From a virus: DNA of 24,081 nucleotides. The stretch's first letter is position 1. Every line of letters starts with the position of its first letter. The DNA lies in IMG/VR virus record IMGVR_UViG_3300032236_000125, positions 1 to 24,081 of that record. One strand, 5' to 3'. Positions 1,015-10,986 of the stretch are shown here, one piece after another. Under the pieces are notes generated by a model. It worked only from the letters and a program-made list of their open reading frames with translations. It did no database searches and had not been told where the DNA came from. A program made the translations under genes and the position numbers.

Positions 1015-2112
1015 ATGTCGCAACTAATATTTTTAGCTCCTTCAGGCGGCACAGTTACATTAACAAATGCTGATACAGCAAGCACAATAAATTTAACTGT
1101 TCCAGCTACTAATGGAACTCTTTTATTACAAGATAGCACAGGAAATTTATCTGTTACAAATTTAACTGTAACTGGAACAGCATCCATTACTGGAACTACT
1201 CAATTACAGCTTCCAAAAGGTAACTCTTCTCAAAGAACTTCTAGTCCTACTACTGGAATTATTCGTTTTAATACTGATGGCGGTGGTTTTTATGAAGGTT
1301 ATCAAGCTGGACAATGGATAAAATTTACAACTTCAAATGAAGGAAGTTACACAGGCTCATATGTTTTAGTTGCTGGAGGCGGCGGCGGTGCGGCACAAAA
1401 TGGTGGCGGTGGAGCAGGAGGGTATTTAACTTCAACAATTACTTTAATTCCATCTACTACTTATAGCGTAATTCTTGGTGCTGGAGGTTCATCAGGCGGT
1501 CAAGGTAACAATTCACAATTAACAGGAATTGCTGTTGCTGTTGGCGGCGGTGCTGGTGGTACAAATGATGGCGGCTCAGGTGGTGGAGCAAGCAATAAAG
1601 GTTATTCAGGTGGTTTAGGCACTAGTGGACAAGGAAATAATGGTGGTTCAGCCCCAAATAATCCTAGTGCTGGTGTAGGTGGCGGCGGCGGTGGTGGTGC
1701 TGGCGCACAAGGTGGAAGCGCATCTTTTGATGGAAATACTGGAGGCGCAGGAGGTGTTGGATTAGCAACAACTATTACTGGTTCTTCAGTTTATTTAGCT
1801 GGCGGTGGCGGCGGTGCGGCTTGGTATGGAACTTCAGGAGGCGGTGCTGGTGGTACTGGCGGCGGTGGTCATGGCGCAAATGGAAATGGTGTTAGCGATA
1901 ATACTTCAGGCTCTGCCAATACTGGAGGCGGCGGTGGTGGTGGCGGTGGCGGTGCTGGTGGTGAAACTCCTTCTAATGGTGGTTCAGGAGTATTTTATCT
2001 TTCTGTACCAACTTCAAGTTATACAGGAACTACAAGCGGTACAGTTACTGTAACTACTAATGGCTCTAACACTGTAATGAAATTTACAACTTCAGGTAGT
2101 TACACAGCATGA
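1015..2112 (+). CDS. Glycine-rich tail fibre/adhesin, 365 aa
   Basis: ATG 1015 follows an AGGA site (TAAGGAATAAATTATG). Residues 1-60 form a Thr/Asn-rich beta region (LIFLAPSGGTVTLTNADTAS). Residues about 65-105 carry the phage-fibre motif LPKGNSSQRTSSPTTGIIRF followed by GGFYEGYQAGQWIKF. From about residue 117 the chain turns into a long glycine-rich domain (YVLVAGGGGGAAQNGGGGAGG) to about 325, and ends in the tail shared with the upstream adhesin (SYTGTTSGTVTV, TTSGSYTA). The role inferred is host receptor recognition at the fibre tip. The last codons overlap the next gene (ATGA). Low-complexity GGN codons make this a likely recombination hotspot and also an assembly-error risk. Confidence 0.85.
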   Translation: MSQLIFLAPSGGTVTLTNADTASTINLTVPATNGTLLLQDSTGNLSVTNLTVTGTASITGTTQLQLPKGNSSQRTSSPTTGIIRFNTDGGGFYEGYQAGQWIKFTTSNEGSYTGSYVLVAGGGGGAAQNGGGGAGGYLTSTITLIPSTTYSVILGAGGSSGGQGNNSQLTGIAVAVGGGAGGTNDGGSGGGASNKGYSGGLGTSGQGNNGGSAPNNPSAGVGGGGGGGAGAQGGSASFDGNTGGAGGVGLATTITGSSVYLAGGGGGAAWYGTSGGGAGGTGGGGHGANGNGVSDNTSGSANTGGGGGGGGGGAGGETPSNGGSGVFYLSVPTSSYTGTTSGTVTVTTNGSNTVMKFTTSGSYTA

Positions 2113-2426: not shown

Positions 2427-3623
2427 ATGACTCAGCCCATTGACATTATCAGCAGAGCATTAAAGGACATTGGCGCATTAGAAGCTGGTGAAACTCCAAC
2501 TCCTGAAGCGGCTCAAGATGCTTTTGATATGCTTAATGACCTTATTGACCAATGGTCAAATGAAGGCATGATGGTCTTTAATACGACTGAAATCATATTT
2601 CCGCTTATTTCAGGTCAAATTCAATACACTATTGGCCCTACACCAAGCACAGCAAATTACATTGGTGCGGCAATTTCAGGAACAATCAATGGAAAAATCC
2701 TTACTGTTTCAGGAATTTCTAGTGGAGCAGTAGCATTAGGGCAAACCCTTAAAGGTTCAGGAATTACATCAGGAACTAAAATAGTTCAATTTTTAACTGG
2801 TGCTGGCGGTAATGTAAATGAAGTAGGTACTTATCAGCTTAATATACCTGGCACTACAGTAGCTCCTGCATTTACTGGCTCTATTTCAGGTACTACTTTA
2901 AATGTAACTGCTATTACTGCTGGCTATCTTGGGGTAGGCTCTGTAATTAGCGGTACTGGTGTTACTTCAGGAACGACTATAACGGCTATATTAAACGGAA
3001 GCGGCGGAGTTGGTACATACACAGTAAGCGTTAGCCAAACTGTTGGTAGTGAGGCTATGACAGCCTCTGTAATACCTATTCCAATTACTCTTTACTATCA
3101 AAAGCCATTAACTATTGATTCTGCTTATGTGCGTATTAATACTAACAGCAATGGTCAGCCCATATTAAATGGCGGCTTGGATTACCAAGTAGGCATTTTG
3201 GCTCTTGAAAACTATAACCAAATTGGTTTAAAAACGCTAAATGGCCCTTGGCCTAAAGCTTTGTATTACAACCCAAATGCGGATCAAGGCAATCTATTCG
3301 TATGGCCTAATCCAGCACAAGGCGAAATGCACCTTTTTGCCAACACTATCTTTGCTAGATATGAAACTTTATATGACACCATTGTTTTGCCACAAGGCTA
3401 TTCAATGGGTCTAAGATGGAATTTGGCTGAACGATTAATGCCAATGTACGGAAAAGCATCTGCAACACAAATAGGCATGATTAATGCTTATGCCGCACAA
3501 TCAAAAGCTACTATTAAGCGTACTAATATGAAGCCTGTAGCATCTGCTTCTTATCCAACTCAAATGTTAGTTGGCAGAGCCAAAGATGCTGGTTGGATTC
3601 TTAATGGCGGATTTACTGGCTAA
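2427..3623 (+). CDS. P22 gp4-like head-to-tail connector (tail accessory factor) with inserted beta modules
   Basis: Residues 1-70 ([20 protein letters not shown], then [16 protein letters not shown] and QIQYTIGP) and residues about 225-398 ([40 protein letters not shown], then a helical end) match the P22 gp4 family. Those proteins form a ring under the portal and help keep packaged DNA in the head. Between the two halves lies an extra block of about 140 residues made of two related repeats (about 82-147 and 149-213; the second starts [12 protein letters not shown]). Related repeats recur in the next gene. A CGGAA site precedes ATG 2427. The stop overlaps the next start (TAATG). Family assignment is by recall of conserved patterns. 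Confidence 0.85.
2667..3065 (+). repeat. Tandem pair of ~65-codon beta-module repeats inside the gp4-like gene
   Basis: Two related coding units in tandem, roughly 2667-2870 and 2871-3065. The pattern is F/I-xGxIxGxxLxV, then a VG or LG turn, xxGxGIT/VTSGTxI, then a Gly-rich turn and GTYxxxxxxTV. The second copy begins [12 protein letters not shown]. The nucleotide copies have diverged, so this is an old or imported duplication. The block interrupts what is a continuous domain in ordinary P22 gp4-type proteins. Confidence 0.75.
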
Positions 3624-5614
3624 TGGCAGATTTTGGATTTGTAGGAGCATCCTACACAGCCCCTTCTATCTATCAGGATGACCAAGAATGTATTAATTGG
3701 CGGCCTGAAATAGATCCTACAAAACAACCTGGAGAAAGGGCTGTTGTTGCTCTTTATCCAACGCCAGGGTTATCATTTTTAACTAATTTACAGCCTAATA
3801 GACCAGTTAGAGGCTTGAGAACAATTTCTTCAGGTGGTTCTCAGCTTATAGCTGTATGCGGAGAATATGTTTATTCTGTTGCTTACAATGGGCAATCTTC
3901 AATCATTGGTCAATTAAAAACCACTACTGGCCCTATAAGCATTACTGATAATGGCCTTTATGTATATATTGTAGATGGTGCAAATCGCTATTCATGGCTT
4001 ATTGAACCTCCTGATACAACCATTTTTACAGGAAGCATTTCAGGAACAACTTTAAATGTTTCTAATTTGGTTGCTGGATCAATTTCTGTTGGCTCACAAG
4101 TATTTGGACTAGGAGTAGTTCCAGGAACTATTATTACTGCTGGATCAGGATTTACATGGACAGTTAATAATTCTCAAAATATTGCTTCTGAAAAATTTAA
4201 TACTGATCCTCCATATTGCATATTTACAGGGTCAATAGCTTCTGCTGGATCTCCTTTAGTTGTAACGCTTACAGTTACAGCAGTTAGCTATGGTTCTTTG
4301 GCTGTTGGAACAACTATTATTGGTGCTGGAATACCTACAAACACCATTATTACTGCTCTAGGAACTGGAACTGGCGGAACTGGAACTTACATATTAAGTG
4401 GCGGCTCATTAACAGTTAGTTCTGAAACAATGTATGCAGAACAATTTAGCATTATACCTTCTACAGATGGTGCTTTTACTGGTGGTACTGTAGTGGATGT
4501 GAATGATAACTATTTTATTTACAGTAGACCAAATAGCCAGCAATTTGCTGTTTCTGACATTCTTAGCCCAATTACAAGGGCTTTAAGCTTTGGCAGTAAA
4601 TTCACTTCTCCTGATAACCTTGTTTCTTTAATTGCAAACAATGGTCAGCTTTACCTTTTGGGTGAAAAATCTACTGAAGTATGGTCAGACCAAGGAACTT
4701 TTCCTTTAGCTTATCAGCGTATTCCAGGAAGCTCTACCCAACAAGGTATCGTAGCTCCTTATTCTGTTGCTAGAGTTGGAAACGCTTTTGCTTATGTTTC
4801 ACAAAATATTCGTGGTTTGAATCAAATTGTTTTAATGAATGGTTATACTCCACAGCGTATTTCTACTCATGCTGTAGAAAATAGCCTTTTAGACCAATAT
4901 ACAGCCGATGCCGTAGCATATACATACCAACTAGAAGGCCATGAAGTTTATGTAGTAAGTTTCCCAACAATTGATATTACTTGGGCTTATGACTTTACAA
5001 CTAATTTATGGCATAAGTGGCTTTGGGTAGATAGCAATAATGTTTATCATCGACATCGTAGTAACTGTGCGGCAGTTTTCCAAGGAGTTGTAGTTGTTGG
5101 AGATTGGGAAAATGGCAATCTTTATCAATTAGATCAAGCTGTTTATACAGATAACGGCGGAGAAATACGCAGATTGCGTAGAGCTCCTCATTTGGTAACT
5201 GATCTTCAAAGGCAGTATTTTGATGAATTGCAGATTCAATTTCAGCCAGGAGTGGGTATCAACGGCTTTTCTGTTGATAGAAATATTTATTTAGGCAATC
5301 CTTATACTATTCCCCTTAATACTCCTTTGACTATTGGAATGCAACAAATTGATGTATTAGGCAATGCTGGTCAGCTTAATTCAAAAGATATTCTTTACAA
5401 TCCTAAAGCCATGCTTCGTTGGTCTAATGATGGTGGATCTACCTGGTCAAAAGAATATTGGCAAGAAATAGGACAGCAAGGCAAATATAAGCATCGTTCC
5501 ATTTGGAGGCGTTTAGGCTGGTCAAGGGACAAGATATTTGAAGTAGTGGTAACTGATCCTGTAAAGGCTGTTATTGTTTCTGCTAACCTTAAAGCTTCTG
5601 TTGGAGAAAATTAA
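3623..5614 (+). CDS. P22 gp10-like packaged-DNA stabilisation/tail hub protein with inserted beta modules
   Basis: ATG 3623 overlaps the previous TAA. The N-terminus ([39 protein letters not shown]) is typical of the gp10 family of P22-like phages, which forms the tail hub between the gp4 ring and the needle/tailspikes. Family hallmarks continue later: FIYSRPNSQQFAVSDIL, LLGEKSTEVW, YQRIPG, IVAPYSVARVGNAFAYVSQN and a C-terminal RLGWSRDKIFEVVVTDPVKA. Residues about 135-272 are an extra block of two beta modules ([12 protein letters not shown] at 135, FTGSIASAGSPLVV at 201) placed after YIVDGANRYSWL, where the family normally continues directly. At 663 residues it is longer than P22 gp10 (about 470), and the insert explains most of the excess. 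Confidence 0.88.
   Translation: MADFGFVGASYTAPSIYQDDQECINWRPEIDPTKQPGERAVVALYPTPGLSFLTNLQPNRPVRGLRTISSGGSQLIAVCGEYVYSVAYNGQSSIIGQLKTTTGPISITDNGLYVYIVDGANRYSWLIEPPDTTIFTGSISGTTLNVSNLVAGSISVGSQVFGLGVVPGTIITAGSGFTWTVNNSQNIASEKFNTDPPYCIFTGSIASAGSPLVVTLTVTAVSYGSLAVGTTIIGAGIPTNTIITALGTGTGGTGTYILSGGSLTVSSETMYAEQFSIIPSTDGAFTGGTVVDVNDNYFIYSRPNSQQFAVSDILSPITRALSFGSKFTSPDNLVSLIANNGQLYLLGEKSTEVWSDQGTFPLAYQRIPGSSTQQGIVAPYSVARVGNAFAYVSQNIRGLNQIVLMNGYTPQRISTHAVENSLLDQYTADAVAYTYQLEGHEVYVVSFPTIDITWAYDFTTNLWHKWLWVDSNNVYHRHRSNCAAVFQGVVVVGDWENGNLYQLDQAVYTDNGGEIRRLRRAPHLVTDLQRQYFDELQIQFQPGVGINGFSVDRNIYLGNPYTIPLNTPLTIGMQQIDVLGNAGQLNSKDILYNPKAMLRWSNDGGSTWSKEYWQEIGQQGKYKHRSIWRRLGWSRDKIFEVVVTDPVKAVIVSANLKASVGEN
4025..4438 (+). 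repeat. Tandem pair of beta-module repeats inside the gp10-like gene
   Basis: Two units, roughly 4025-4198 and 4223-4438. Each starts FTGSI and continues with LxV, VG, GxGxxPGT/PTNTIIT and a Gly-rich GTGTY turn; the first unit is shorter and degenerate. They match the pair in the upstream gp4-like gene, the clearest shared string being [12 protein letters not shown]. Both pairs are in frame and leave the host protein readable on each side. Confidence 0.75.
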
Positions 5615-8399: not shown

Positions 8400-10441
8400 T
8401 GGATAATTTATACACTTCATTGGAAGAAAAATATAAACTTCCATCAGGTCTTTTAAGCTCTGTTGAAGGAGTGGAAAGCGGCGGTTATAATTCCGCAGTT
8501 AGCCCTAAAGGTGCTAGAAGTAGCTTTCAATTTATGCCTGACACAGCAAAAGCTTACAATGTTGATGTAAATGACAAAGTAAGTGCGGCTCATGGTGCGG
8601 CTCGTTATTTATCTGATCTTTTAAAAGAATATGGAAGCGTTCAAGCGGCTTTAGCCCATTACAACGGCGGAACAAAATCAGGAAAAGCTGTTGCGGCTGG
8701 TCAAGATGCTCCTTATGAGGAAACTAGAAATTACTTGCAAAAGGTAAATTCAAAGTTAAAAGTTAATCCTGAAAACATTCAATGGTCAGATATGAATGAG
8801 CCACAAGGCTCTGTAACTGTATCTTCACCAAATCCACAAGATATTCAATGGAATGATTCTGCAAAAACAGACACTTCTAATATGTCTAATCAAGAATTGT
8901 TTGGTAAAGGCATATTGCAATCAGGAAAAACAACTGCAACTGGAGTTGGTCAAGCTTTAGATTTGCCAGCACAGTTTTTGGAGAAAAAGCTCAAAGGAAC
9001 TGCAATTGGTGATGTAATTAGCCAATTTGGTCAAAAGCTTGGATTGCCTACTGCTGAAGAAGCGGCGGCTCAAAGACCTGAAGAAATTCGTAAATTGCGT
9101 GAAGAAAATGCCGCAATCACATCTACTCCTGCTGGTGCGGCTGGAAATATTGTTGGTGATATTGGTCAAGCTCTTGTATTGCCAGGCGGAACAATTCTTA
9201 AAACTGCTGGTGCTGGAACTGTATTAGGTGCGGCACAACCTGTAGGAGAAGGCGAAAGCCGAGTTATGAATGCTGTTGGCGGCGGAACTGCTGGAGCATT
9301 AGGTCAAACTGCTGTAAATGCTATTGGTAGAGTTGCTCAACCAATAGTCAAAAATCTTAGCAAACAAGCTGAAAAAGGCGTTCAAGTTCTTAAAGATGCT
9401 GGCGTTCCTCTTGATTTAGCTCAAGAAACTGGATCTAAAGTAATGGGTTGGGCCAAGCGTTTAACTTCTGATAATCCTTTTACTGGTGGCGGAAGCCATG
9501 CTTTTGAAGAAATGCAAAACAATGCCTATACAAAAGCTATTGCAAGAACTATGGGTGAAGATGCTGAACGCATTACTCCTGAAGTATTGAAAAACGCTAA
9601 GACAAGGCTTGGTGATAATTATGATGCTTTGTTTGGTAGAAATGGCGTAAGAGTTACAAGAGATTTTCAAAAAGAATTAACATCTTTAAAAGAATCTTCA
9701 GAAAAAGTTATGCCTGAAGGACAAAAAGGAATTACCAATATTGTTAATGATATTTTGGACAAATCCAAAGTAAACATGGGCCATTTAGATGGCAAACAAT
9801 ATCAAGCCATAAAACAACAATTAGCCGCTATGGAAGCCCAAGGCGGAACTGCTGGTCATTATGCTGGTGAGTTAAGAGAAAAATTGTTTGAAGGTCTTTC
9901 CAATACCATTAAAAAGATTGGCAACAAAGACGATTTAGAGCTTTTAAAGCAAACTAACAAGCAATACGGCAATATGAAAAAGATTGAAGATATTGCCCTT
10001 AAAGATCCTGAAGGCCATGTTAGTGCATCTAAACTTTATAACTCTTTGACAACCAAATCAAAACGCAATGCTTTTTATCAAGATGATCCTGAATTAGCTA
10101 GATTAGCTTCTGCTGGTAAAAATGTATTACCTGAAAAAATGCCTAATAGCGGAACTGCCGCTAGATTGGCTGGTCAAGCCGCCATTCCTACTGCTGTAGC
10201 TATGGCTGATTATGCAAAAGAAGGCGATATTGGAACTGCGGCAAAACTTGGTTTAAGTGCTTATGTTGCTCCAAAATTGCTACAAAAAGCATTAACTTCT
10301 CAAGGTGCGGCTGGCAAATATTTAAGAGAAGGAGTTCAAAACATTCCTTTGCGTTCATTGTTACAAGCTCCTTCTAAACTTGGCGTTGGTAAATTGCCAT
10401 TAGCTTACGAAACTCAATACTTGCAAAAAGGTAAACAATAA
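8399..10441 (+). CDS. Internal virion/ejection protein with N-terminal lytic transglycosylase domain, 680 aa
   Basis: Residues about 1-105 form a soluble-lytic-transglycosylase (SLT) domain. The catalytic glutamate is probably E26 in VEGVESGGYN, followed by AVSPKGARSSFQFMPDTA and the AALAHYNGG motif. Such domains in ejected proteins (for example T7 gp16) cut peptidoglycan locally so that DNA can pass. Residues about 125-155 carry two copies of an I-Q-W-S/N-D linker motif. A hydrophobic Gly/Ala-rich stretch at about 245-320 could insert into the membrane, and the rest is helical. It is the third and largest of the ejection set, coupled to neighbours by TAATG junctions on both sides. Confidence 0.85.
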   Translation: MDNLYTSLEEKYKLPSGLLSSVEGVESGGYNSAVSPKGARSSFQFMPDTAKAYNVDVNDKVSAAHGAARYLSDLLKEYGSVQAALAHYNGGTKSGKAVAAGQDAPYEETRNYLQKVNSKLKVNPENIQWSDMNEPQGSVTVSSPNPQDIQWNDSAKTDTSNMSNQELFGKGILQSGKTTATGVGQALDLPAQFLEKKLKGTAIGDVISQFGQKLGLPTAEEAAAQRPEEIRKLREENAAITSTPAGAAGNIVGDIGQALVLPGGTILKTAGAGTVLGAAQPVGEGESRVMNAVGGGTAGALGQTAVNAIGRVAQPIVKNLSKQAEKGVQVLKDAGVPLDLAQETGSKVMGWAKRLTSDNPFTGGGSHAFEEMQNNAYTKAIARTMGEDAERITPEVLKNAKTRLGDNYDALFGRNGVRVTRDFQKELTSLKESSEKVMPEGQKGITNIVNDILDKSKVNMGHLDGKQYQAIKQQLAAMEAQGGTAGHYAGELREKLFEGLSNTIKKIGNKDDLELLKQTNKQYGNMKKIEDIALKDPEGHVSASKLYNSLTTKSKRNAFYQDDPELARLASAGKNVLPEKMPNSGTAARLAGQAAIPTAVAMADYAKEGDIGTAAKLGLSAYVAPKLLQKALTSQGAAGKYLREGVQNIPLRSLLQAPSKLGVGKLPLAYETQYLQKGKQ

Positions 10442-10986
10442 TGACTGTATTACTTTCGCCTATTGGCAATACCATGACTCCATTCTTGGGGCTAGACAAT
10501 TTACCTTTAGCTGGTGGATTGCTTTATACATACCAGGCTGGCTCTACAACTCCATTAACTTCCTATACAAGCGCAGATGGATCTATTGCTTGTGCTAATC
10601 CTATTGTTTTGGGAACTAATGGCGTAGCTCCAACAGAAATTTGGCTTACTTCAGGTGTTTCTTATAAGTTTGTATTGGCAACTGCCGCCAATGTAACGCT
10701 TTACACCTATGACAATATTGCTGGTATTCCTTCTTCTGCGGCTTTAGCCAATGTGCCAAGCGGAGCAATTTTAGTATGGTCAGGAGCTATTTCTGCTGTT
10801 CCAAGTGGCTATGTATTATGTAACGGCTCTAATGGCACTCCAAATCTACAAGACAGTTTTGTTGTTGGTTCAGGAAATACATTCTCAGTAAATGCGGCTG
10901 GTGGATTTGCTTCTTCAGGTGTTATGACAAGCACAGGAACTAATACTCCTTTATATTATTCTTTAGCTTACATAATGAAAACCTAA
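10441..10986 (+). CDS. Short receptor-binding protein: P22-tailspike-like head-binding domain plus tail-collar domain
   Basis: Residues about 18-95 (LDNLPLAGGLLYTYQAGSTT, TSADGSIACANPIVLGTNGV, YKFVLATAANVTLYTYDNIAG) follow the pattern of the N-terminal particle-binding domain of P22 tailspike and related podovirus spikes. Residues about 104-181 (PSGAILVWSGAISAVPSGYV, LCNGSNGTPNLQDSFVVGSG, YYSLAYIMK) match the phage tail-collar domain found at the ends of many fibres. The protein would attach to the neck and present the collar domain outward. At 181 residues it lacks the long beta-helix of true tailspikes. The TAATG start is shared with the preceding stop. Confidence 0.8.
   Translation: MTVLLSPIGNTMTPFLGLDNLPLAGGLLYTYQAGSTTPLTSYTSADGSIACANPIVLGTNGVAPTEIWLTSGVSYKFVLATAANVTLYTYDNIAGIPSSAALANVPSGAILVWSGAISAVPSGYVLCNGSNGTPNLQDSFVVGSGNTFSVNAAGGFASSGVMTSTGTNTPLYYSLAYIMKT

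Follow-up and report, generated by a model that had tools for sequence, protein, structure and literature searches.

In an uncultured phage with a short tail, two consecutive neck proteins carry the same pair of extra modules, which raises the questions of whether these blocks are true insertions, how they came to sit in both proteins and what they might do at this point of the virion. The IMG/VR virus record concerned is identical with the window, the stretch of 24,081 bases analysed here. An initial annotation had placed one module family twice in each of the gp4-like and gp10-like proteins, in blocks of about 140 residues, and had read these blocks as in-frame domain insertions. The features concerned are the following.

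Module insertions in two neck proteins

2427..3623, plus strand: gp4-like head-tail adaptor, 398 residues, host of modules 1 and 2 (PHROG 637 Ad3, PHROG 12985; predicted core similar to P22 gp4)
2670..2867, plus strand: module gp4-a, residues 82-147 (HMM 52.2 bits, best shuffle 10.8)
2868..3068, plus strand: module gp4-b, residues 148-214 (HMM 84.9 bits, best shuffle 8.9)
3623..5614, plus strand: gp10-like nozzle or packaged-DNA stabilisation protein, 663 residues, host of modules 3 and 4 (PHROG 578 Hc3, E 3.8e-92; predicted core similar to P22 gp10)
4022..4207, plus strand: module gp10-a, residues 134-195 (HMM 61.2 bits, best shuffle 9.8)
4220..4441, plus strand: module gp10-b, residues 200-273 (HMM 64.6 bits, best shuffle 6.5)
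10441..10986, plus strand: probable spike or fibre, its N-terminal domain of the head-binding kind (match to 7eeq_A, the corresponding domain of the Pam1 tailspike, E 1.2e-7)

A single-module query against the window's own record returned exactly four matches, namely the query itself and three others with E values of 6.6e-12, 9.5e-10 and 4.9e-8. The units are about 62-74 residues long and the two-unit blocks about 133-140 residues, in good agreement with the annotated length. Threonine, serine and glycine together make up 49% of 591 units while charged residues account for 3.3%, compared with 16% in the host cores. A chance likeness through this composition was ruled out by a control of 1000 shuffles per module, in which an HMM trained solely on 45 modules of proteins other than gp4 and gp10 gave 52-85 bits for the four modules and at most 10.8 bits for the shuffles. 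Across the other open reading frames of the window the same HMM found nothing significant, the one further frame listed having an E value of 0.56. Conserved module positions are mostly glycine, threonine or hydrophobic, with one tyrosine or tryptophan position, and this pattern, together with the scarcity of charge, is as would be expected for a structural domain.

Both hosts read normally on either flank of the blocks, as had been proposed. Besides their PHROG Ad3 and Hc3 matches, the predicted structures contain the P22 gp4-type adaptor helix bundle in the gp4-like protein (9pgg_Ax, Z 15.2, 112 residues, rmsd 2.0) and the overall P22 gp10-type fold with its central propeller in the gp10-like protein (8eap_D, Z 36.9, 364 residues).

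Module state was genotyped in about 240 loci, some of which overlap and four of which (L001-L004; loci are numbered with the prefix L) are pieces of the window. Units in gp4 are found at one site after residue ~72, with one unit in 145 loci and two in 88, and the gp4 of Rhodoferax phage P26218 shows an in-frame empty site with an 18-residue gap. For gp10, 105 sampled loci are without the module (in-frame gap of ~7-12 residues); two HMM matches were obtained in 65 loci and three in 57. In the cases read (L022, L031 and L102), the third match proved to be the remainder of module b beyond a nested unit that interrupts it. Since relatives vary between zero, one and two modules at one gp4 site and between zero, two, and two plus nested units in gp10, the blocks are true in-frame domain insertions of one family at fixed sites in both neck proteins. 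In the gp4 of Xanthomonas phage PBR31, an insert of 79 residues looks similar without giving a significant match, and no other phage was found when this insert was used as query. No cultured relative with modules was encountered, MW202520 and MW202674 being environmental assemblies.

Predicted fold and distribution of the module family

Both host proteins were modeled using AlphaFold2 with family alignments. Mean pLDDT was 83 for gp4, with module blocks mostly at 87-96 and lowest at 79, and 77.5 for gp10, with module blocks mostly at 82-94. Separate barrels beside P22 gp4- and gp10-type cores were predicted in both structures, which further bears out the insertion claim. Neither of the outcomes named beforehand as fatal to that claim was seen, given that the gp10 of many relatives is free of the block and that the models do set the modules apart. 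Foldseek with the gp4 module stretch matched 8eci_1 (E 0.037, probability 1.00), a chain titled 'Decoration protein' which is gp7 of Arthrobacter phage Bridgette, and residues 145-216 of the gp4 model (module gp4-b) aligned to it with Z 7.5 and an rmsd of 2.1 A over 65 residues at 32% identity. EF-Tu-domain-2-type barrels (eEFSec, IF2, eEF1A) tie with 8eci_1 on Z, mostly at 10-13% identity. Judged by the models, the barrel fold would thus be a common one with the Bridgette decoration protein as its best specific match. Dimeric capsid cement proteins have been described for Bridgette (PMC13033339).

The module and Bridgette gp7 also have the stretch GI-x-AGTTITA in common. With composition correction their sequence score was above all 1000 shuffles, and without it the score was reached by 0-2 of 2000 shuffles, depending on profile and stretch. 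PDB sequence and profile searches with the module yielded no credible match and missed 8eci_1. A sequence kinship is suggested by the shuffle controls, which favour it and do not prove it. Bridgette gp7 stands on its own in the capsid and is extended at its C-terminus, whereas the modules are insertions in neck proteins.

Ig-like domains are displayed on phage virions, and the modules had initially been likened to them. The comparison stands for behaviour: like the Ig-like domains of tailed phages, the module is a promiscuous beta domain of the virion surface, seen in many virion proteins and partly as an insertion. It probably does not stand for the fold, which is predicted as a barrel of decoration-protein or EF-Tu-domain-2 type. 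Ig chains do not appear among the fold matches listed for the module stretch, an absence that does not in itself exclude an Ig-like fold; those listed are other barrels. Curated Ig families gave no match above cut-off against the modules, and a weak Big_6 match was seen in one of 32 (E 0.027).

To follow the family elsewhere, a consensus module made from gp4 and gp10 units was used as IMG/VR query; the module alignment varied too much to be scanned for as a pattern. At least 501 relatives were obtained, and most of the 80 loci kept are gp4 or gp10 of this phage group, as expected because the consensus was built from gp4 and gp10 units. Further members were found in another family of nozzle proteins (PHROG 3287), in baseplate wedge proteins and in one protein each of the tail sheath, minor head and tail fibre kinds. 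The tail sheath protein (PHROG 205; L315:3532-5493) has two modules. Cellular genomes contributed 18 loci with the module, including a baseplate J protein. Five adjacent modules together with a secretion-sorting domain occur in a Bacteroidota protein of 2286 residues (L332:4330-11190). Among the entries listed by a BFVD search with the gp4 model are a major capsid protein of HK97 type (39% identity) and, from the giant virus Indivirus, two proteins with collagen repeats (A0A1V0SCQ2 and A0A1V0SDM6, ~21% identity). In each case the identity refers to the gp4 model, of which the module may be the matching part.

No Pfam entry for the module family was found, and the tested module proteins had no NCBIfam match. 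A Cu-oxidase likeness of the module (Pfam E 0.16) was discarded as chance. A tblastn search of one module against annotated phages returned nothing, most likely due to masking of the module by the low-complexity filter, and a text search for the FTGSISG motif, with most subscription journals outside its scope, gave no paper naming it. Domain mosaicism in virion proteins has been linked to host contact in a survey that relies on ECOD domains and puts its emphasis on tail spikes, fibres, baseplates and endolysins (PMC10684548). The module differs from the domain shuffling described there in having no Pfam entry and in its hosts here, which are neck proteins. Promiscuous Ig-like virion domains were already known; new here is a different, Pfam-absent barrel that occurs in two neck proteins in contact with each other and with nesting.

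Lineages, nesting and the gp4-gp10 junction

The idea that one module spread within a single tail machine holds in so far as all four units belong to a shared family. Mean identity is 54-73% within a positional module lineage and 38-48% when a gp4 lineage is compared with a gp10 lineage. Recent copying from one neck gene to the other within one phage was rejected, since gp4-gp10 module pairs of the same phage (37-50% identity) are no closer than pairs from different phages. On core trees of 171 phages, computed with the inserts left out, the empty and filled states of gp10 are separated by one change on the gp10 tree, which is separate from the gp4 changes, and by five on the gp4 tree; one versus two modules in gp4 calls for six changes or more on the tree of gp4. 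Because the outgroups are empty, the gp10 pair reads as a single gain. For gp4, module b is hinted to be the added one since single-module units are nearer to module a (57% identity) than to module b (54%). Five gp10 state changes on the gp4 tree and one on its own would fit recombination between gp4 and gp10. A sign of such an event is seen in L091-L094, where a two-module gp4 that is ~78% identical to that of the window is combined with a gp10 of the empty lineage. Modules diverge faster than their host cores, above all in gp10.

In many relatives the gp10-b copy is split by nested units, which in the sample of larger inserts that was read lie between the ITALG strand and the last strands. 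What is nested there is a second unit type (GTGYAVND...GG), present once or more (L031, L102, L308, L302). The nested unit of the L031 gp10 covers residues ~240-325, and the stretch 228-342 resembles PHROG 9703 'head decoration' (E 2e-4). In the gp10 of L261 and L311, residues ~268-399 appear to comprise an extra unit of the module family itself, into which yet another unit of that family is inserted, and L298 shows the same hit pattern.

The junction between the two genes, at 3623 in the window, is itself variable. The two genes are at least 100 bases apart in 45 of 220 loci, and many of these gaps hold an endonuclease (e.g. L006, L013, L030, L042, L162 and L230) while some hold a short fibre-like open reading frame instead. 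The endonucleases are of an HNH_3/zinc-loop type, of an HNH-looking type without a Pfam match, or of two NUMOD3-bearing kinds that resemble GIY-YIG enzymes. Among 26 distinct endonuclease members in these loci, 23 lie exactly between gp4 and gp10; as junction frames had served as seeds for the families, this figure means that they hardly occur elsewhere nearby and is not an unbiased rate. Two of the carriers, L006 and L013, are close relatives of the window, which has no endonuclease at its junction. It is plausible that junction endonucleases drive exchange of the gp4-gp10 segment.

Such mobility invites the view that the modules are tolerated passengers, accepted by outward loops with little effect and drifting in number by recombination. 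Variable copy number, units within units (the second unit type included) and the clustering of endonucleases at the junction would all suit this. We nevertheless consider it improbable, since reading frame, insertion site and positional lineages have been conserved despite large divergence and every sampled gp4 protein of this phage group has at least one module. A broader proposal, which we offer tentatively and believe rather less than we doubt it, is that the decoration-type barrel serves as a general virion plug-in of sheath, baseplate, adaptor, nozzle and capsid, able to nest within itself and parallel to Ig-like domains in all but fold, and that its spread in the neck was driven by homing endonucleases at the junction.

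Possible roles at the adaptor-nozzle joint

P22 and T7 have 12 adaptors and 6 nozzle subunits. If the same stoichiometry applied here, about 24 modules from gp4 and 12 from gp10, or some 36 in total, would ring the adaptor-nozzle joint. Within the gp4 model the modules lie between extra strands at 53-69 and 218-307, and these strands appear to be the counterpart of the T7 gp11 fibre dock (171 residues aligned, loosely, rmsd 5.2). P22 gp4 is without a fibre dock domain (PMC6702177). The gp10 modules are placed by the model on a loop between propeller strands. What was inserted in frame at these two sites would be a mobile, nearly uncharged, Thr/Ser/Gly-rich barrel of capsid-decoration type, the gp4 modules among the strands of a dock-like beta domain and the gp10 modules on a propeller loop, probably acquired by recombination from a wide pool common to many virion proteins.

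The initial annotation had left adhesion, stability and surface-sugar roles side by side. The predicted fold match leans towards stability or decoration. The role that we consider most likely, at slightly less than an even chance, is that of a collar of decoration domains which would brace or shield the adaptor-nozzle joint and the spike sockets. This is favoured because of the decoration-protein likeness, the scarcity of charge and the ring geometry. Weighing against it are how common the predicted barrel is, the modest sequence evidence for kinship with the Bridgette protein, the looseness of the T7 gp11 alignment and the speed at which the modules diverge. The occurrence of the family in bacterial secreted proteins also counts against bracing, as bracing of a capsid cannot be its role there.

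Those same secreted proteins, together with the wide spread over virion proteins, point towards adhesion, in which weak but many-fold binding of cell-surface or environmental glycans would keep the phage near its host. Adhesion of this glycan type has been proposed for the Ig-like domains of other phages. Surface-loop sites and the high copy number predicted for the ring would favour it as well, and the faster divergence of the modules, with gp10 modules outpacing their cores, is also compatible with it. However, conserved charged residues are absent, aromatic residues are few beyond the one tyrosine or tryptophan position, and a capsid decoration protein is the nearest specific match of the fold, so that adhesion seems unlikely to us, if still worth serious thought.

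The position of the modules bears on spike attachment, too. The fibre docks of T7 gp11 (adaptor) and gp12 (nozzle) flank the fibre (PMC6702177). Like the modules, these docks are beta domains which adaptor and nozzle carry at the fibre-attachment joint, but they belong to the proteins' own fold whereas the modules are additions that differ in number between phages and have a barrel of another type. The product of 10441..10986, with its Pam1-type head-binding domain, is expected to dock at gp4/gp10, the joint that the modules would ring. Just upstream of the gp4-like gene, window positions 1015-2112 encode a glycine-rich product (Pfam Gly_rich_2) that is probably a further tail appendage. The modules might reshape the socket for particular spikes, with module number following spike type. 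Consistent with this are the location of the gp4 modules among strands that appear to match the T7 dock, the Pam1-type head-binding domain encoded by the phage, and a fibre in L204 whose N-terminal domain is related (PHROG 26190) and which itself carries a module. Module number varies between close relatives, however, and the gp10 modules are at a different site, which makes an adaptor function quite improbable.

Whether the modules brace and shield the joint or act otherwise, the graded states found in relatives (zero, one, two, and two plus nested units) are natural with and without pairs for testing the function of a surface module, and they single out the adaptor-nozzle joint as permissive for insertions.
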